Shown here in pieces: positions 2,996 to 50,795 of a stretch of DNA of 64,000 nt. Numbering within the stretch: the stretch's first letter is position 1; the number at the start of each line of letters is the position of its first letter. The notes below the pieces were generated by a model. The model did not search any database. It was given only the letters and a program-made list of their open reading frames with translations, and was not told where the DNA came from. The translations under genes were made by a program, and so were the position numbers. The DNA is from Deltaproteobacteria bacterium (lineage in GTDB: Bacteria > Myxococcota_A > UBA796 > GCA-2862545). The stretch spans positions 1-64,000 of the forward strand of contig SBGP01000088.1 of the NCBI GenBank assembly GCA_006226595.1. The letters run 5' to 3'.

Positions 2996-3579
2996 TGCCC
3001 GATCTGAGCGCGCTGGATCCGCTGCTCCAGTCCGCGCAGGACGCCCCGGTGGCGATGCGTGCCCTCGTCGGCGCGGCCTCCGGCCTCATGCTGCTCGCCG
3101 GCGCGCGCGTCTATGAGTGGGCGCTGTTCGGGAGTGCGGTGCTGCTCGGCACCGTCGGCGGGGCCTCCCTGGTGGTACTCGTCGACCAGGCCGTACCTGG
3201 CGCCGCCACGCCCGTGGCCCTCGCCATCGGTGGACTCGTCGGCGGCGCGCTGCTCCTGGGGCTCGCCAAGGCCACGCACAAGGCTGCGCTGGTCGGCGTG
3301 GGCGGCCTTCTCGGGGCGGCGGGAGGTAGCGCGGTCGCGGCACTCGCTGGTGGCGTCTGGTGGGCGCCCCTCGCCGGCGCCCTCGTCGGGGCGATCGCGC
3401 TCCCTTTCCTGTTCCAGACCGTGCTCAAGATCGTCACTCCCGGGGTGGGAGCGGTCGGCATCGCCTGGGCCGTCGGCATGCCCGAGAAGCTGTGGCTACT
3501 GGGCTTGCTGTGGGTTTTCGGCACCGGCGTTCAGCTCGGATTCATCCGAACGCGCGAGCGCGAGGAGCCGGAAGATTGA
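2995..3579 (+). CDS. Multi-pass membrane protein of unknown function
   Basis: A 194-residue protein dominated by Gly/Ala/Leu-rich hydrophobic segments, about six to seven predicted membrane helices between residues 20 and 185, and ending in a short charged tail (RTREREEPED). No catalytic motif is visible. It overlaps the ftsB stop by one base, so the two are likely co-translated, but I do not infer a division role from this alone. The Gly-rich helices loosely recall TMEM198-type or other DUF membrane families; this is not a firm match. Confidence 0.6.
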   Translation: MPDLSALDPLLQSAQDAPVAMRALVGAASGLMLLAGARVYEWALFGSAVLLGTVGGASLVVLVDQAVPGAATPVALAIGGLVGGALLLGLAKATHKAALVGVGGLLGAAGGSAVAALAGGVWWAPLAGALVGAIALPFLFQTVLKIVTPGVGAVGIAWAVGMPEKLWLLGLLWVFGTGVQLGFIRTREREEPED

Positions 3580-3652
3580 CTGTTGCGGGGTGCGCTTGAC
3601 GTGCCCCATCCCCTGTCCCAGGATAGGGGCCCGCCGTACTGGAGGAGCGCGG

Positions 3653-3946
3653 ATGGATCCGACCACGATTGGCCTTGCAGCGACTGGAGGTTGTTGCTGC
3701 CTGAGCTCCGTCTTCATCATCATCGGTGGCGCTGTCATGATGATGCGTGGCGGCGGCCAGGGGGCTGCGGACGCGCTTCCCGAGACGCCTGCGGCAGCAC
3801 CCGCTGCGCCTGCGCCGGAGCCGGCGGCCAAGCCGGAGCCGCCGCCGCCGCCGAAGCCGGAAGCCCCCGCCGAGAAGCCGCTGCCGCCTCCGCGCACCGC
3901 CGGCGCGACGATCATCGCGTTCGACGACGACTTCGACGACGACTAG
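3653..3946 (+). CDS. Small single-pass protein with Ala/Pro-rich tail
   Basis: A 97-residue protein. Residues 1-34 form a Cys-containing hydrophobic segment (GGCCCLSSVFIIIGG) ending in an Arg; residues 35-85 are an Ala/Pro/Glu/Lys-rich low-complexity stretch; the end is acidic (FDDDFDDD). The start ATG has GGAGGA 6 bases upstream, which supports translation from here and not from open sequence further 5'. No domain is recognised. The triple Cys could be a lipid or metal site, but this is speculation. The ygfZ gene starts 3 bases after its stop. Confidence 0.6.
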   Translation: MDPTTIGLAATGGCCCLSSVFIIIGGAVMMMRGGGQGAADALPETPAAAPAAPAPEPAAKPEPPPPPKPEAPAEKPLPPPRTAGATIIAFDDDFDDD

Positions 3947-39176: not shown

Positions 39177-39206
39177 TTGACAGGTGCCAGGCTCCCGCTC
39201 TAGGTT
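39177..39206 (+). promoter_or_regulatory. Sigma-70-like promoter of the ilv operon
   Basis: TTGACA (39177-39182), a perfect -35 box, and TAGGTT (39201-39206) are separated by 18 bases. Transcription would begin near 39213, just before the leader peptide. An AT-rich palindrome (TATATT-CAAT-AATATA, 39134-39149) lies upstream and could be an operator or part of a divergent promoter. Confidence 0.7.
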
Positions 39207-39239
39207 CCTCGAGCACCGCACTTCCGGAGTGACCTCGAC

Positions 39240-39335
39240 GTGAACCGTCTCGACGCCATCGCCACCTGCCCGCAGGCTGTCGTAGTCGTCGTCTCTGTTG
39301 TCGTCGTCGTTACCGACGAGGAGTGCGCGGCCTAA
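39240..39335 (+). CDS. ilv leader peptide (31 aa, ten Val codons)
   Basis: A 32-codon ORF, GTG to TAA. The peptide has the run A-VVVVV-S-VVVVV-T: ten Val codons within eleven positions (residues 14-24), and one Ile (residue 7) and one Leu (residue 4). GGAG lies about 10 bases ahead. This is the pattern of E. coli ilv leader peptides. It is the sensing part of the attenuator: scarcity of charged Val-tRNA stalls the ribosome on the run. The product itself is not expected to function as a protein. Confidence 0.9.
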   Translation: MNRLDAIATCPQAVVVVVSVVVVVTDEECAA

Positions 39336-39396
39336 GCCTTTCAGCAAGCGAACAGCGGCCCCGCCCTCCTCGACGAGAGCGGGGCCGCTGTCGTTT
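39304..39396 (+). promoter_or_regulatory. Transcription attenuator of the ilv operon
   Basis: Three competing helices can be read. Helix 1:2 pairs 39304-39309 with 39314-39319 (6 bp, TTAC loop) inside the Val run. Helix 2:3, the antiterminator, pairs 39314-39332 with 39357-39375, 16 of 19 pairs with three single mismatches. Helix 3:4, the terminator, pairs 39352-39364 with 39379-39391 (13 perfect pairs) followed by CGTTT. A ribosome at the leader stop (39333) covers strand 2 and lets 3:4 form. A ribosome stalled in the Val run melts 1:2, frees strand 2 and lets the antiterminator form. Confidence 0.85.
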
Positions 39397-39441: not shown

Positions 39442-40341
39442 ATGTCAGCACCGAATCTCACCCTGTGGCTCGACGGCGAGCTCCGAAGCACCGCCAACCC
39501 GCAGGTGAACCTGCTCGATCAGGCCCTGCACTACGGCAGCGGCGTGTTCGAGGGCATTCGCGCCTACGACACCGCCCACGGCCCGGCCATCTTCCGGCTG
39601 CCCGAGCACATGGACCGCTTGCAGCGCGGCCTCGCCCACTTCGGGCACCAGGCGGATCTGGAGGCGATGTGCGCCGCGATGCCCGGGCTGCTCGCCACCA
39701 ACGGCCTGTCCGATGCCTACCTGCGGCCGATCGCCTGGCTCGGCGGCAACGGTCTCAGCCTCGACGTGGAGCACATGCAGCTCCGCCAGTGCGTGGCCGC
39801 ACTCCCGTGGACCAGCCACCTCGGCGAGACCGCCAAGGCCGGGCTCAAGCTGATGACGAGCAGCTACCGCCGCAACAGCTCGGACAGCATGCCGCCGCTG
39901 AAGATGTGCGGGGGCTACGTGAACAGCCTGCTCGCCAAGCTCGAGGCCACGCGCAAGGGCTACGACGAGGCTCTGTTCCTCGACGGGAAGTGGGTGTGCG
40001 AGGCGAGTGCGGAGAACGTGTTCTTCGCCAAGGACGGCAAGCTCACCGCCATCACCCACAAAGACATGCTGCCGGGCATCACCCGCGACAGCCTCATCGC
40101 GATCAGTGGGGCCGAGAGCCGGGCCGCGACCTTCGCCGAGCTCTACGACGCCGACGAGATCTTCCTGTGCGGCACCAGCGCCGAGGTCACCCCCGTGACC
40201 CTGCTCGACGACCGCGAGCTGCCGATCGGGCCCATCACCAAGGCCCTGGCCGCCACCTACCAGGACATCGTCCACGGCCGCGACACGACCTTCGCCCACT
40301 GGCTCACCCTCGCCGGCGAGAAGCGTCGGGGTGCCGCGTGA
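39442..40341 (+). CDS. ilvE: Branched-chain amino acid aminotransferase
   Basis: A 299-residue class IV PLP aminotransferase transferring amino groups to 2-oxo acids of valine, leucine and isoleucine. The PLP Lys is Lys154 (PPLKMCGGYVNSLLAK), and ALHYGSGVFEGIRAY near residue 30 and CGTSAEVTPV near 255 are family motifs. GAGGAAG (39432-39438) precedes the ATG at 39442. It is the first gene of the operon behind the attenuator, and its stop overlaps ilvB (GTGA). Confidence 0.95.
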   Translation: MSAPNLTLWLDGELRSTANPQVNLLDQALHYGSGVFEGIRAYDTAHGPAIFRLPEHMDRLQRGLAHFGHQADLEAMCAAMPGLLATNGLSDAYLRPIAWLGGNGLSLDVEHMQLRQCVAALPWTSHLGETAKAGLKLMTSSYRRNSSDSMPPLKMCGGYVNSLLAKLEATRKGYDEALFLDGKWVCEASAENVFFAKDGKLTAITHKDMLPGITRDSLIAISGAESRAATFAELYDADEIFLCGTSAEVTPVTLLDDRELPIGPITKALAATYQDIVHGRDTTFAHWLTLAGEKRRGAA

Positions 40342-42269
40342 TCAACATCCTGAGTTCCGACGCCACGACGGACGAGAGTCCCTTCACCGAGTCCGGCCCC
40401 ACCGATGCTTTGCGGGTGAGGGGAGCGAGCGAAGCGAGTCGAGCCGAATCCCCCGCAGCCGCGAGCCGTCAGGCGAGTGGCGAGGACCCCCGCAGCGGGC
40501 AACCGCACGCTGCCAATCTGATCTCACCGACCCTTCGGCCCGCCTCGACCGCCGACGCCCCCTCGCGACTTCTCCGAGAGCTCACCGGCGCCCAGCTGAT
40601 CTGGGAAGCCCTGCTCGCCGAGGGCGTGGAGGTCTGCTTCGGCTACCCCGGCGGCGCGATCATGCCGGCCTACGACGCGCTGCCCGCCTACCCGATCCGC
40701 CACGTGCTCACCCGCCACGAGCAAGGGGCGTCGCACATGGCCGACGGCTACGCCCGCGCCTCGGGCAAGGTCGGCGTGGCCATCGCCACCAGCGGTCCCG
40801 GTGCGACGAACCTCGTCACCGGCATCGCCACCGCCATGCTCGACTCGGTGCCGATGGTGTGCATCACCGGCCAGGTTCCGAGCCACCTCCTGGGCAGCGA
40901 CGCCTTCCAGGAGACCGATATCACCGGCGTCACCCTGCCGATCACCAAGCACAACTTCCTGGTCACGAAGGCCGAGGACATCGCGCCGACGCTGCGCCAG
41001 GCCTTCGCCATCGCCCGCTCGGGCCGTCCGGGACCGGTGCTCGTCGACATCACCAAGGACGCCCAGCTGGGCACGGCCAGCTTCGATCCCGAGGCCGAGG
41101 CGCCGCCGCTGCCGGAGCGCCGCCTCGAGCTCGCCGACAGCGGGGACTTCGCGCGGGCCATGGCCCTGCTCTCCGAGGCCGAGCGCCCGCTGATCCTCGC
41201 CGGTCACGGCATCATTCAGGCCGGGGCGGAGGACGCGCTGCTGGGCCTCGCCGCGCGCATGGACATCCCGGTCACCAACACCCTGCTGGGTCTGGGCGGT
41301 TTCCCGGCCTCTCACCCGCTGAACCTGGGCATGCTGGGCATGCACGGCGAGGCCTCCGCGAACCGGGCCGTGCAGCGGGCCGACGTCATCCTCGCCGCGG
41401 GTATGCGCTTCGACGACCGGGTGACCGGCAAGCTCGAGACCTTCGCTCGCCGCGCGAAGATCATCCACCTCGAGCTCGACCCCGCCGAGATCGGCAAGAA
41501 CGTGCACGCCGACGTGCCGTTGCTCGGGTGTGCGAAGCGCTCGCTGACGGCCCTGCTCGAGCGGGCGCCCGAGGCCAGCCACGCCGCGTGGCGTGCGGAG
41601 ATCGGCCAGTCCCAGCGCGAGTCCGCGGCCCGCGACATCCTCGCGCTGCCGGACACGGGCAAGCTGCACGCCGCTCACGTGCTCCACGACCTGTGGCGGC
41701 TCACCGGCGGCCGGGCCCTCATCGTCAGCGACGTGGGCCAGCACCAGATGTGGGAGGCCCAGTACTACAAGCACGAGAAGCCTCGCAGCCTGCTCACCTC
41801 GGGCGGCCTGGGCACCATGGGCTTCGCGTTGCCCGCGGCCATCGGCGCACGCTTCGCGCGTCCCGACGAGCCTATCTGGGTGGTGGTCGGCGACGGCGGC
41901 TTCCAGATGACCGCGTGCGAGCTGTCCACCTGCGCTCAGGAAGGCCTGAAGGTGAACATCGCGCTGATCAACAACGGCTACCTGGGCATGGTGCGCCAGT
42001 GGCAGGAGTTCTTCTACGGCGGCCGCTACGTCGCGACCCCGCTCAAGAACCCGGACTTCTGCAAGCTCGCCGAGGCCCACGGACTCGACGCGATGCGGGT
42101 CACCGAGCGCTCGGACATCGCCCGTGCGGTGGCCTGGGCCAACGGCACCGAAGGCACGGCGCTCATCGACTTCCGCGTGGTCGAAGAGGACGCCGTGTAC
42201 CCCATGGTTCCGGCCGGAGCCGAGCTCGACGACATGATCCGGAGGCCCGCGGCCTCCACGGAGGCCTGA
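40338..42269 (+). CDS. ilvB: Acetolactate synthase large subunit
   Basis: A 643-residue ThDP/FAD-dependent enzyme forming acetolactate or acetohydroxybutyrate. The ThDP-binding Glu is in [15 protein letters not shown], and [14 protein letters not shown]...LINN is the ThDP/Mg motif. The family core begins at [12 protein letters not shown] (about residue 80), so there is an N-terminal extension of nearly 80 residues, of Ser/Ala/Glu low complexity, with a repeat-like sequence in it. GTG 40338 overlaps the ilvE stop by 4 bases. The extension is unexplained. Confidence 0.95.
40413..40496. repeat. Repeat-like segment inside the IlvB N-terminal extension
   Basis: Within the open frame, a GCGAGCGAAGCGAGTCGAGC stretch lies between GCGGG and CCCGC arms that could pair, and CCCCCGCAGC occurs twice (40450-40459 and 40487-40496). 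The sequence reads like a dispersed intergenic repeat and not like coding for a conserved domain. Confidence 0.4.
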
Positions 42270-42757
42270 TGCACACCTTCATCGTCCACGTGCAGGACCA
42301 GCCCGGCGTGCTCAACCGCGTCGTCTCCCTGTTCCGCCGCCGCGCGTACAACATCCACGACATCCACAGCAGCCGGACGCACCAGGCCGGCGTGCACCGC
42401 ATGACCATCTGGGCGGAGGGGGATGCCGAGCGCATTGCCGCCAACCTCTACAAGCTGGTCAACGTGATCTCCGTCGAGGAGGTCAGCCGCCAGCCTTTTG
42501 TGGCCCGCGGCCTCGCGCTGCTCAAGCTCGAGGCCACCGAGAAGACCCGGCCCGAGCTCTTGCAGCTGTGCGAGGTCTTCCGCGCGACCGCCGTCGACAT
42601 CGGCCCGGACGCGCTCATCGTCGAGCTCACCGGCAGCGCCGACAAGATCGCCAGCTTCGTCGATGTCGTGCGCCCGTACGGCATCCGCGAGATGGCGCAG
42701 ACCGCCGCCGTCGCCATGACCCGTTGCTCCGGCCGCGCCGCCGAGCGCGCTGCCTGA
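42269..42757 (+). CDS. ilvN: Acetolactate synthase small (regulatory) subunit
   Basis: A 162-residue regulatory subunit that stimulates IlvB and mediates feedback inhibition by valine in known enzymes. The N-terminal ACT domain begins [21 protein letters not shown] with RRRAYNI and [15 protein letters not shown]; the C-terminal part ends in the usual regulatory region. The ATG overlaps the ilvB stop by one base (TGATG). Confidence 0.95.
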
Positions 42758-42792: not shown

Positions 42793-43827
<1,035 letters not shown>

Positions 43828-43836
43828 GGGACCGAG

Positions 43837-45495
43837 ATGAACCGCCACTCCAAGCGCCTGACCCAGGACCTCCGCCAGGGGGCCAGCCAGGCCATGCTGC
43901 TCGCCACCGGTCTCACCGCCGAGGACCTCGACAAGCCCCAGGTCGGCATCGCCAGCGTCTGGTGGGAGGGCAACCCCTGCAACATGCACCTGCTCGACCT
44001 CTCCGAGGCGGTGAAGCAGGGCGTGGAGGCGGCGGGGCTCGTCGGCCTGCGCTTCAACACCATCGGTGTGTCCGACGGCATCTCGATGGGCACGGACGGC
44101 ATGTCCTACAGCCTGCAGTCCCGCGAGCTCATCGCCGACAGCATCGAGACGGTGATGTCGGCGCACTACTACGACGGCGGCATCACCATCCCCGGCTGCG
44201 ACAAGAACATGCCGGGCTGCGTGATGGCGATGACCCGTGTGGATCGGCCTGCACTCATGGTCTATGGGGGCACCATCGCCCCGGGATGCCACAAGGGCAA
44301 GCCGGTGGACGTGGTGAGCGCGTTCCAGAGCTACGGCCAGCTGCTGTCCGGGGAGATCGACCGGGAGGAGCGCGATGCCATCGTCGCGTCCAGCTGCCCC
44401 GGACCCGGCGCCTGCGGCGGCATGTACACCGCGAACACCATGGCGGCGGCGATCGAGGCCCTGGGCCTGTCGCTGCCGTATTCCTCGTCCACGCCGGCGA
44501 CGAGCGAGGCCAAGCGCGAGGAGTGCCGACGGGCCGGCCAGGCCATGGTGCTGCTGCTCGAGCGGGATCTGAAGCCGAGCGACATCCTGAGCCGCGCGGC
44601 CTTCGACAACGCGATGACCGTGGTCGCTGCCCTCGGCGGCTCGACCAACGCCGTGCTCCACCTCATCGCGATGGCGCGGTCGGCGGGCGTGGACTTCACC
44701 CTCGACGACATCGCCGCGATCAGCGAGCGCACGCCGTTGTTCGCGGACCTCAAGCCCTCTGGACGCTTCTTGATGGCGGATCTGCACGCGGTCGGCGGCA
44801 CGCCGGCGGTGATGAAGCAGCTGCTCGCCGAGGGCCGCCTGGACGGCAGCTGCATGACCGTGACCGGGCGCACGCTCGCCGAGAACCTGGCCGAGGTGCC
44901 CGGACTCGCTGCCGGCCAGGAGGTCGTGCGTCCCGAGGCGCTGCCGATCAAGGAGACCGGCCACATCCGCATCCTCCGCGGAAACCTGGCTCCGGACGGG
45001 GCGGTCGCCAAGATCACCGGCAAGGAGGGGCTGCGCTTCGAGGGGCCCGCGAAGGTCTTCGACCGCGAAGAGGCCATGCTCGCGGCGCTGGAGGAGGGAC
45101 GCATCGCCAAGGGCGACGTCATCGTCATCCGCTACGAGGGGCCGAAGGGCGGGCCGGGCATGCCCGAGATGCTCACCCCGACGAGTGCCGTGGTCGGCGC
45201 GGGTCTCGGCGGCGAGGTCGCGCTGATCACGGATGGTCGCTTCAGCGGCGGAAGCCACGGCTTCATCATCGGCCACGTGTGCCCCGAGGCCCAGGAGGGC
45301 GGTCCCATCGCGCTCATCGAGGACGGCGACCGCATCCTCATCGACGCCGAGGCCAACACCATCGAGGTGGCCGCCGACCTCGACGCCCGCCGCGCGGTCT
45401 GGAAACAGCCCTCTCCGGTCGCCACGCGGGGGACCCTCGGAAAGTACGTGCGGCTGGTGAAGTCCGCGAGCGAGGGCTGCGTCACCGACGAGTAG
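43837..45495 (+). CDS. ilvD: Dihydroxy-acid dehydratase
   Basis: A 552-residue Fe-S enzyme catalysing the penultimate step of valine and isoleucine synthesis. The cluster Cys are in [17 protein letters not shown] and [17 protein letters not shown], the expected triad. C-terminal motifs [15 protein letters not shown] and [14 protein letters not shown]-like turns fit. It starts 9 bases after ilvC and is the last gene of the operon. Confidence 0.97.
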
Positions 45496-47504: not shown

Positions 47505-48005
47505 TTACACCGTAAAGAAACGCGGCCACACGAGGGCGTCGAGCACCACGCACTGCCAGCACAGCAGGCTCCACGCCGCGAGCACGCGGTGGCGGTGGGC
47601 AAGGTCGCTGCGCGTGATCTCGGCAGCAATGGCGAGCGCGAACACGGCAGCGAGTGCGAGGACGGCTTGAATCGCGGGCAGCAGGCTGGCACGGCTGTGG
47701 TCGAGGGCGGCGAAGCACAAGGGCATCCACGCGGTCGAGGCCGCGAGAAAGCCGGCGTACCAGACGGTCGTGCGTCGGTAGCCCTCGCTGTGCGGGTCTC
47801 GTCGCCACAGGAACCACGTCGCGACGAGGTAGCCGACGGCCGCGGGCGGCATGCACAGGCTGTACGGCGTCCACCACGCCTCGGGAATCGTGCCCCACAG
47901 GCGCTCGGCGGTATCCGGGTGCGTCGCGAGCCCCCACGCGTAGCTGCCGAGGACGGACAGCCCGCCGAGGACCTGGACGATGGCGAAGGAGAGGCGAGGG
48001 GACAT
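47505..48005 (-). CDS. Small multi-pass membrane protein, function unknown
   Basis: A 166-residue protein with about five hydrophobic helices, Trp-rich (AWWTPYSLCMPPAAVGYL, WRRDPHSEGYRR loop). The size, helix count and Trp-rich loops recall TspO/MBR-like or similar small membrane proteins, but no diagnostic motif is visible. It lies just 3 bases from the convergent lipoprotein stop. Confidence 0.6.
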   Translation of the reverse strand: MSPRLSFAIVQVLGGLSVLGSYAWGLATHPDTAERLWGTIPEAWWTPYSLCMPPAAVGYLVATWFLWRRDPHSEGYRRTTVWYAGFLAASTAWMPLCFAALDHSRASLLPAIQAVLALAAVFALAIAAEITRSDLAHRHRVLAAWSLLCWQCVVLDALVWPRFFTV

Positions 48006-48030
48006 GCGCTCGCCGTATCCAGGCTTGGCC

Positions 48031-49023
48031 TCAGAGGCCGAAGTACGCAGTGATCCCGGTGGTCTTCAGGCTCTCGTCCCACAGCGCGCTCTCGCCTTCG
48101 GGGTCGCGCTCGGGGGGCAGCCGCACCGCTTCACCGGTGCGCGCCTCGCGGGTGGGGCCGTAGAAGTCGGTGGAGGTGACCTCGGGGGCGCAGGCCGCGC
48201 GGCAGATACCGAGGGTGCCGTCCTCGACGGACTGAGCGGCCTTGAGGGTGCGCCACAGGATGTAGCGATCCAGCCACCGGCGGCTGGGCGTCTTTCCCTG
48301 CAGACCGGAGTCGGCGGGGCCAGGGTGGGCGCACAGGACCTTGATCTTGTCGGCGTACGCGGGCTGCTCGGCGACGATGTGCTCGTGCAGGGCGTAGGTG
48401 AACAGCAGGTTCGCGAGCTTCGACTGGCGGTATCGCCGCCAGCGGTCGAGACCCGGCCAGCCGTCTCCACCGAGATCGCCGCCGTGCTTGCCCAGGTAGC
48501 GGGGCTTGAGTGGTGCACCCAGGCGAGCGGCGCTCGAGTGGTTCACGATCCGTGCCTCTCCCCGGGCGTCGGCTGCGGCGGTGAGCAGCGGCCAGACCTC
48601 GGAGGTGAGCAGGAAGTGCGACAGGTGGTTGGTCTGCATCTGGACATCGCAACCGTCTTCGGTGGCGAGGTCGTCGATGGCCATCACGCCGGCGTTGTTG
48701 ACGAGCACGTCGATGGCATCGAAGCGCTCGCGAAGCTCGGCGCCGGCAGCGCGCACGCCGGCGAAGGACTGCAGGTCGCAGGCCACGCCGTGCACGTCAC
48801 CCCCGGCGGAGACGAGCTCCGACTCGACCTTGCGAGCGCGCTCGCTCGCGCGATTGAGCAGCACCACGCGCGCGCCGAGGTTCGCACAGGTCGCGGCGAG
48901 CACCTTGCCCGTGCCGCTGGTGCAGCCCGTGATGGCCACCGTCCTGCCGTCGAGGCGGGGCAGGCTGGCGACGTAGTCGTGGAACAGGCGCGTCTCGGGA
49001 AGGGGACGGTCGAGCGAGAACAT
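48031..49023 (-). CDS. Short-chain dehydrogenase/reductase
   Basis: A 330-residue SDR with the cofactor motif GCTSGTGK (about 33-40), LVNNAGVM, and the catalytic YRQSK with the preceding Ser in NHSSAAR. It resembles retinol dehydrogenase/WW-domain-oxidoreductase-like SDRs. GGAGGCCGC precedes the ATG. It is divergent from a TetR regulator with tandem operators in the shared promoter region, so its expression is probably repressed by that regulator. Confidence 0.88.
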   Translation of the reverse strand: MFSLDRPLPETRLFHDYVASLPRLDGRTVAITGCTSGTGKVLAATCANLGARVVLLNRASERARKVESELVSAGGDVHGVACDLQSFAGVRAAGAELRERFDAIDVLVNNAGVMAIDDLATEDGCDVQMQTNHLSHFLLTSEVWPLLTAAADARGEARIVNHSSAARLGAPLKPRYLGKHGGDLGGDGWPGLDRWRRYRQSKLANLLFTYALHEHIVAEQPAYADKIKVLCAHPGPADSGLQGKTPSRRWLDRYILWRTLKAAQSVEDGTLGICRAACAPEVTSTDFYGPTREARTGEAVRLPPERDPEGESALWDESLKTTGITAYFGL

Positions 49024-49035
49024 GCGGCCTCCGAT

Positions 49036-49070
49036 TGAGCAGTGCTTAGTGCCTTGTTAAGCAGTGCTTA
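49036..49070. promoter_or_regulatory. Two TetR-type operators, 22 bp apart
   Basis: TAAGCAGTGCTTA (49058-49070) is a perfect odd palindrome around a central G. TGAGCAGTGCTTA (49036-49048) is a copy with one mismatch. The centres are 22 bp apart (two helical turns), in the 111-bp gap between the divergent SDR and TetR genes. They lie just 13 bases before the SDR start codon, consistent with repression of it. Confidence 0.8.
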
Positions 49071-49134
49071 GTGGGTGGGTGTCGGGCGCGCAAGCGAAAC
49101 TTGACGCGATGCCCGTTCCACGTGAGGGCTCGGT

Positions 49135-49737
49135 ATGGCCGACGCGTCACCCGCCGCTGATCTCCGCACACGCCTCGTCGCGTGCGCCCTCTCGCTGCTG
49201 GATCACGAGCACCCGGACGACCTGTCGATCCGCGAGGTGACGCGCCTCGCCGGGGCCTCTTCGGGGGCGCCATACCATCACTTCGGCGACAAGCGCGGCC
49301 TGCTCGCGGCTTGCGCCGACGTCGCGTGGCGGGACCTTCGCCAGGCCATGGACGGCGCGGCAGATCCGACGGACGACCTCGTTGCCCAGCTTCGTGCTCG
49401 CGCCCTGGCGTACCTCGCCTTCGCGCTCGCCAACCCTGGACAGTATCGCCTGCTCATGTCGCGGCTGTTCGACGACGCGGAGCGCTTCCCGAACCTGGTC
49501 GAGCAGCGGGCCGAGGCGATGCGCGGGGTGATGCTGCTCATCGCGCACTCTGGTGTCGCCGGGAACGACGCACTCGCCCTCAAGCAGCGTGGCCTGGCGA
49601 TCTGGTCCATGCTCCACGGCTTCGCCGAGCTGGCGCTGGATGGCGGCTGGGCCTCGGAGGAAGGCTTCGACGCCAAGCGCGTGGGGGTCGTCGATCTCGC
49701 GGTCCGCGCAGCCCTGCTTCCCGAGGAAGGTGCCTGA
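49135..49737 (+). CDS. TetR/AcrR-family transcriptional regulator
   Basis: A 200-residue repressor. The N-terminal helix-turn-helix is read as LSIREVTRLAGASSGAPYHHFGDKRGLL (about residues 30-57 region, with AGASSGAPYHHFGDK as the TetR signature). The ligand-binding C-terminal domain follows (about 70-190). It probably represses itself and the divergent SDR gene through the tandem operators. The next gene overlaps its stop by one base. Confidence 0.9.
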   Translation: MADASPAADLRTRLVACALSLLDHEHPDDLSIREVTRLAGASSGAPYHHFGDKRGLLAACADVAWRDLRQAMDGAADPTDDLVAQLRARALAYLAFALANPGQYRLLMSRLFDDAERFPNLVEQRAEAMRGVMLLIAHSGVAGNDALALKQRGLAIWSMLHGFAELALDGGWASEEGFDAKRVGVVDLAVRAALLPEEGA

Positions 49738-50099
49738 TGCCCGCCGACCGCAAGGCCTTCGATCGCGTGTTTGCCGCAGCGAACAGTCGCCTGTCCGAGC
49801 TCTCCGTCGAGCGCTGTCGCGCGATCGAGCTCGCCCAGACCCGGGCGATCCGCGTGGTGGGTCCCAAGCCCGCGCTGCTCAAGGCGCTGCTGCGTCAGAT
49901 GGGAGAGGAGCCGCCGTCCGAGGCCTGGCGAAGCCGCAGCCACTGGAGCATGCGCCGCGTGTACAAGCGGCTGTTCGACGAGGGCGAGCGAGCCGAGGTG
50001 CTTCAGACCGCGCTCAACGCGTACCTCGACGGTCAGACCGAGCTCGCGGGCAAGTGGATGGATCTCGACACACTCGTGCGGCCCTGGGGCGAGCACTAG
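49737..50099 (+). CDS. Small protein of unknown function in the TetR operon
   Basis: A 120-residue, helical, Arg-rich protein without signal or membrane segment. SELSVERCRAIELAQTRAIRVVGPKPALLKALLRQMG and a WSMRRVYKRLFDEGERAEVLQ stretch are the visible blocks; no family is recognised. The ATG overlaps the TetR stop (TGATG), so it is co-translated with the regulator. Confidence 0.55.
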   Translation: MPADRKAFDRVFAAANSRLSELSVERCRAIELAQTRAIRVVGPKPALLKALLRQMGEEPPSEAWRSRSHWSMRRVYKRLFDEGERAEVLQTALNAYLDGQTELAGKWMDLDTLVRPWGEH

Positions 50100-50153
50100 C
50101 GTGCTTGCACCCGAAGCTTCAGGTGTACGCCTCGGGACTCTTCCGGCGTAAGC

Positions 50154-50795
50154 CTACGGCGTAAGCCAGACGCTGAACCGGTGAACGCCCTCGATCGCGA
50201 AGCCGATCGCGAAGATGCCGAGGGCGAGCGACAGCACCCGCATCAGCGCCGTGTAGCGACCGCCGTCCACCTTGTGCCGCACCGAGGCCATGGCGCTGGC
50301 GAGGACGGCCTTCGACCCCACCAGTCCGCCAAAGAACCCGACCAGGAAGCCGGAGAGCGCGCTGGTCGACGTCGTTGCCGCCTCGTAGGCGAGGGGACCT
50401 CCGATGCTCACCCAGAACACGTAGGGGTGGGGGTTCACGAGGTTGGTGAGCACCGCGGTGCGCACGCTCCGCGGATCGCTCTGTTCCCCTGGAGAGGGGG
50501 GCTGGGCGTTCCACGACTCCTTCGCGAGCATCGCGAGAAAGCCGGCACCGACGAAGGCCACCACGCCGAGCACCCCGTCGATGCCGGACAGGGCACCGAC
50601 GGCACACGCGGAGAGAACGAGCAGCGGCCCGTCGGTGAGCACCGGGGCGCAGGCGACCTTCAGCCCCTCGCGCAGGCCGTGGCGAAGGGTCTGTGACAGC
50701 ACCAGCGCGGTGAGCGGGCCGGGTGACAGGCCGCCTGAGACGCCGAGCACGGCGCCGGTCGCGAGGAAGCCGAGGGCGGAGGTCAGGACGGGCAG
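50154..50795 (-). CDS. LysE/RhtB-type exporter, probable CTG start
   Basis: A 213-residue membrane protein with about six hydrophobic helices. GGLSPGPLTALVLSQTLRHG and TNLVNPHPYVFWVSIGGPL are the family motifs of LysE-type amino-acid exporters. The first helix lies in open sequence upstream of GTG 50750, the first ordinary start codon. CTG 50795 has GGAG 5 bases upstream and would restore the usual N-terminus. It follows the zinc-ribbon gene by 18 bases on the same strand. Confidence 0.8.
   Translation of the reverse strand: MPVLTSALGFLATGAVLGVSGGLSPGPLTALVLSQTLRHGLREGLKVACAPVLTDGPLLVLSACAVGALSGIDGVLGVVAFVGAGFLAMLAKESWNAQPPSPGEQSDPRSVRTAVLTNLVNPHPYVFWVSIGGPLAYEAATTSTSALSGFLVGFFGGLVGSKAVLASAMASVRHKVDGGRYTALMRVLSLALGIFAIGFAIEGVHRFSVWLTP

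Follow-up and report, generated by a model that had tools for sequence, protein, structure and literature searches.

The window, by which we mean the whole 64-kb stretch of DNA that was analysed, carries a branched-chain amino acid (BCAA) operon on its forward strand, and all window features described here lie on that strand. Family models identified ilvE (branched-chain aminotransferase, 39442-40341), ilvB (acetolactate synthase large subunit), ilvN (acetolactate synthase small subunit, 42272-42757, start approximate), ilvC (ketol-acid reductoisomerase, 42796-43827, start approximate), and ilvD (dihydroxy-acid dehydratase, 43837-45495). The best matches for ilvE were just under the curated cut-offs. 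For ilvB, TIGR00118 scored 704.6 bits over 40581-42269, a matched part that does not fix the exact start of the gene. These assignments confirmed the order ilvE-ilvB-ilvN-ilvC-ilvD that the first-pass annotation had read downstream of a leader.

That leader is an ORF of 31 codons at 39240-39335, with a GTG start and a TAA stop, encoding the 31-amino-acid peptide VNRLDAIATCPQAVVVVVSVVVVVTDEECAA (full translation, (M)NRLDAIATCPQAVVVVVSVVVVVTDEECAA*). Ten Val codons and a single Ser codon make up its regulatory run at 39279-39311. Translation thus bore out the claim of ten Val in eleven codons, and also the strong overall valine bias, as the ORF holds only one Ile and one Leu outside the run. These tandem codons for the end product lie ahead of valine-pathway genes. 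Across the 7.2-Mb genome, the leader was the only match to the Val-run pattern with zero mismatches; the other matches had two mismatches each and were mostly GTC tandem repeats. The GTG lies nine bases past a GGAG (39227-39230), the likely ribosome-binding site, which aligns with CCGGAG in the genus mate. Both the ORF and this site sit between a promoter and the first gene, a layout in which the leader would be translated.

The promoter (39177-39206) consists of TTGACA, an 18-nucleotide spacer, and TAGGTT, and it aligns with TTGACA-N18-TACGTT in the genus mate. It was the sole match to TTGACA-N16-19-TANNNT in the window, where 0.02 would be expected by chance. Owing to its poor -10 box, it was missed by a stricter sigma-70 scan. 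Given this promoter, transcription is expected to start near 39213, well ahead of the leader ORF, and not after 39335, the placement that had been named as evidence against attenuation.

Alternative helices and the ribosome on the leader

The first-pass annotation had proposed three mutually exclusive helices in the leader RNA. Two of them, 3:4 and 2:3, folded where it had placed them, whereas 1:2 was marginal and absent from ribosome-free folds. The 3:4 terminator hairpin (39352-39391, -34.0 kcal/mol) joins strands 39352-39364 and 39379-39391 through 13 outer pairs plus an inner CTC/GAG and is followed by CGTTTGGG. Its 13 pairs and stability suit a terminator, whereas the tail is U-poor, with a short tract of 3 U. 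The hairpin ends 50 nucleotides before ilvE, and a simple terminator scan left it unlisted. The region folds far more stably than shuffled sequence, with z scores of -5.5 for 39295-39396 and -6.9 for 39335-39396.

The 2:3 antiterminator has strand 3 in common with the terminator. Strand 2, which lies within the leader ORF (39314-39332) and was assessed by shuffle tests and the ribosome walk described below, pairs in folding with strand 3 (39357-39375) at 16 of 19 positions. Pairing in this region was better than in dinucleotide shuffles (p 0.009 and 0.008). When the leader peptide was recoded synonymously, about 11% of the recodings paired as well as the actual sequence and none of those sampled paired better, so that the difference fell short of significance (p 0.11). 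Strand 1 (39304-39309) pairs with 39314-39319 in a helix of 6 bp and -6.7 kcal/mol that was populated mainly with early stall positions. With a helix this weak, a protective role for 1:2 is only putative.

For the ribosome walk, a 30-nucleotide footprint was placed on each leader codon and the remaining RNA was folded. With the transcript ending at 39384 and the A site at 39279-39303, the probability of 2:3 was 0.81-1.0 and that of the terminator was nearly nil; among these favourable codons, seven Val and the Ser had full effect and the following Val reached 0.87. The two helices were balanced with the A site at 39306 (0.40/0.41). Further along, the probability of 3:4 was 0.86 at 39309, 0.67 at 39312, and 0.92-0.99 from 39315 to the stop. 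The stalling logic that had been read from the geometry was therefore reproduced in silico at this transcript end, in that a stall in the Val run gave 2:3 and a ribosome at the stop gave 3:4 (0.99). Folding with and without blocked positions, which had been suggested as a check, recovered the switch between 2:3 and 3:4 at this intermediate length but not helix 1:2 in the ribosome-free case. In ribosome-free RNA, 2:3 formed first (0.99 at 39376) and was then displaced by 3:4 (0.83 at 39384). At full transcript length, 3:4 was favoured at equilibrium for all ribosome positions. The switch must thus be kinetic and set during transcription, as it is in known attenuators.

Conservation in the genus mate and nearby relatives

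The genus mate (G001, record JAGSGY010000024.1) keeps the promoter, the ribosome-binding site, a homologous but diverged Val-rich leader (VTSYLAIAAPKLAVSLVVSVVVVVSVVGGECVA), and both the 2:3 (-31.9 kcal/mol) and 3:4 helices. Several Val and Ser codons differ synonymously from those of the window. The terminator core is the same, with one compensatory pair (C-G to A-U at 39353/39390), and the tail after it is more U-rich, reading CTTTTGTTTGGG. Close relatives had been proposed as a place to look for loss of the Val codons or helix pairs, and in this genome both were retained. In the G001 ribosome walk, the antiterminator was dominant on most Val codons and was lost near the stop. With the ribosome near the stop, the terminator reached 0.06-0.09 at intermediate length and was complete only in the full hairpin.

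The exact element is present in two genomes only. We did not find such a leader at the ilvB locus of G004, a member of the same family, nor a Val leader at ilvE relatives of ~53% identity or less, and leuA-like loci had no convincing leader. We weighed horizontal transfer of the operon and set it aside for ilvE, which gave no sign of it; the ilvE tree places the window with the genus mate, with a MAG of the Myxococcales, and with a paralogue from the window's own genome. This grouping and the mention of Myxococcota in the first-pass annotation are the grounds on which the phylum was assigned. A second ilv locus with relatives of ilvE and ilvB lies on contig C14 of G000, the genome of the window (47619-50397, minus strand). 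By eye, it is neighboured by ilvC-like ORFs upstream and a threonine dehydratase-like ORF downstream, and no convincing BCAA leader was found upstream of it.

Branched-chain leaders across the phylum

A search for biosynthetic-type ilvB gave a match in 57 of 153 genomes from the phylum and, in one additional family (f19), 24 matches among 34 genomes. We took at most 700 bases upstream of each ilvB and added the window and G001 with the stretches before their ilvE. The sample comprised 73 stretches, each at least 200 bases long; five genomes from which no upstream sequence was extracted were left out. We counted a short ORF rich in Val, Ile, or Leu that was followed within 110 nucleotides by a GC-rich hairpin with a T-rich tail. 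Leader and terminator occurred together in 25 of the 73 stretches in sense and in 0 in antisense, against a mean of 1.0 in shuffles; the count of 25 overstates the independent cases because most come from f19 and the majority of those from one genus. Leaders of other lineages passed the filter in G115, G119, and G189, and leaders outside it were seen in G007, G159, G191, G103, and G187. The window leader was the most valine-biased among those observed.

Automatic terminator pickers chose wrong hairpins in several loci, and hand-set terminators were used instead. With these, 2:3 pairing was better than in dinucleotide shuffles (p<0.05) in 12 of 16 loci (Fisher p 3e-13), while in G007 it was no better. 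In one f19 genus, all changes in strand 3 keep pairing with both partners, including one compensatory change in G084.

The f19 leaders of G080, G084, G180, and their relatives are strongly conserved BCAA leaders that lie ~310 nucleotides upstream of ilvB. They end in VVVVV(S/G)LIISLLLV and have a textbook terminator with a CTTTTTTG tail. At L205 (G159), a BCAA leader and terminator (3561-3701) precede a lipoyl-domain-like ORF adjoining ilvB, possibly part of a 2-oxoacid dehydrogenase E2. At L194 (G191, 1979-2101) and L174 (G103, 1171-1317), BCAA leaders and terminators lie before an ORF that by eye resembles ilvD and not immediately before ilvB.

Proposed mechanism and relation to known systems

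Taken together, we consider it very likely that the element works by classical ribosome-mediated transcription attenuation, with charged tRNA-Val as the signal. This reading draws on the leader ORF and its helices, on folding with the ribosome at successive positions, on conservation in one genus mate, and on the parallels in the phylum. We infer from it that the leader is translated, that transcription terminates in vivo, and that the element responds to valine. Transcription would begin near 39213. A ribosome that translated the whole Val run and reached the stop at 39333 would cover strand 2, so that strand 3 would pair with strand 4 and transcription would end near 39391-39396. Under a shortage of Val-tRNA, the ribosome would stall in the Val run and leave strand 2 free. 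The free strand would then capture strand 3 before strand 4 was synthesized, with read-through into ilvEBNCD as the outcome.

The U-poor CGTTTGGG tail, set beside the CTTTTTTG-like tails of many parallel elements in the phylum, would also fit a leader and hairpin that are real but with a hairpin that is insufficient for termination on its own; Rho access or initiation at ilvE would then be under ribosome control. We regard this as improbable, since the hairpin is very stable, ends 50 nucleotides before ilvE, and is followed in the genus mate by a more U-rich tail. GTC runs elsewhere in the same genome raise the idea that the Val-rich ORF arose by chance within a GTC-repeat stretch, next to a hairpin that is an ordinary terminator. 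That idea is hardly credible when Val identity is kept in the genus mate despite synonymous changes, when the promoter, the geometry of the stop codon, and 2:3 pairing all fall together, and when the survey gave sense but no antisense cases. A ligand-binding riboswitch or T-box, which a 5' terminator ahead of a biosynthetic operon would fit too, is just as implausible, since the coding pattern accounts for the sequence and none of 4227 Rfam models matched the whole window above its gathering score (the one such match across ten related loci was a tRNA, on a stretch that is unrelated, and a permissive search returned only sub-threshold matches to unrelated families).

The attenuator reading has a well-known counterpart in the leader of E. 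coli ilvBN (ivbL), where a Val-rich peptide has its two Val blocks separated by a single residue and a terminator lies ahead of the acetolactate synthase operon. The window leader likewise has two Val blocks with one residue between them and is followed by a putative terminator and an acetolactate synthase operon. However, the window operon starts with ilvE and includes ilvC and ilvD, and its leader starts with GTG, has Val as its only regulatory codons, and has no Rfam match. The ilvBNC operon of Corynebacterium glutamicum has a BCAA-codon leader peptide, an antiterminator, and a terminator (PMC11857589, PMC10272879), a plan that the window element resembles with its own leader, antiterminator, and putative terminator. 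Its leader, MTIIRLVVVTARRLP, holds three Val, and it belongs to another phylum and another RNA, the ilvB-II motif (PMC11857589, PMC10272879).

Other Myxococcota BCAA leaders, such as those of the G080 family (VVVVVSLIISLLLV), G191 (VVVSVVLVVVVLLALLVLI), and G007 (VVSVVLLVLVVRVLIGI), have an anatomy in common with the window: a BCAA leader, a GCGGGG-like strand 2, a CCCCGC-like strand 3, and a terminator that begins ~15-45 nucleotides past the stop. In contrast to the window leader, they use mixed Val, Leu, and Ile codons, lie before ilvB or an ilvD-like gene, and mostly have stronger U tracts. We tentatively suggest that these are related BCAA attenuators that form a set across several Myxococcota families, undescribed as a family, with the window element as its valine-only form. 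Strand 2 in the set may often be GGTGCGGG-like and strand 3 CCCCCGCACC-like, a description that we offer with the same reserve.

Myxococcota were formerly counted among the Deltaproteobacteria. Two older comparative surveys, Vitreschak 2004 and Lopatovskaya 2010, may include the latter. In the literature that we searched, to which these two surveys did not belong, there was no leader-peptide control of ilv genes in Myxococcota. The remark in the first-pass annotation that attenuation is little described in this group agrees with that literature, but our survey shows such attenuators to be widespread across the phylum. The mechanism is already known; what is new is the host group and the phylum-wide parallels. 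Textbook leader-peptide attenuation would thereby extend to a phylum for which the literature searched held no description, and the loci offer a test set for whether such attenuators descend from a common ancestor or were invented several times.

Many genomes of the phylum had no strong TIGR00118 match, which may mean auxotrophy. Only 5 of 71 genomes in the window's class have an ilvB close to that of the window (E <= 1e-130), and with so few comparable genes, the window genus appears to be among the few there that need such regulation of the pathway.
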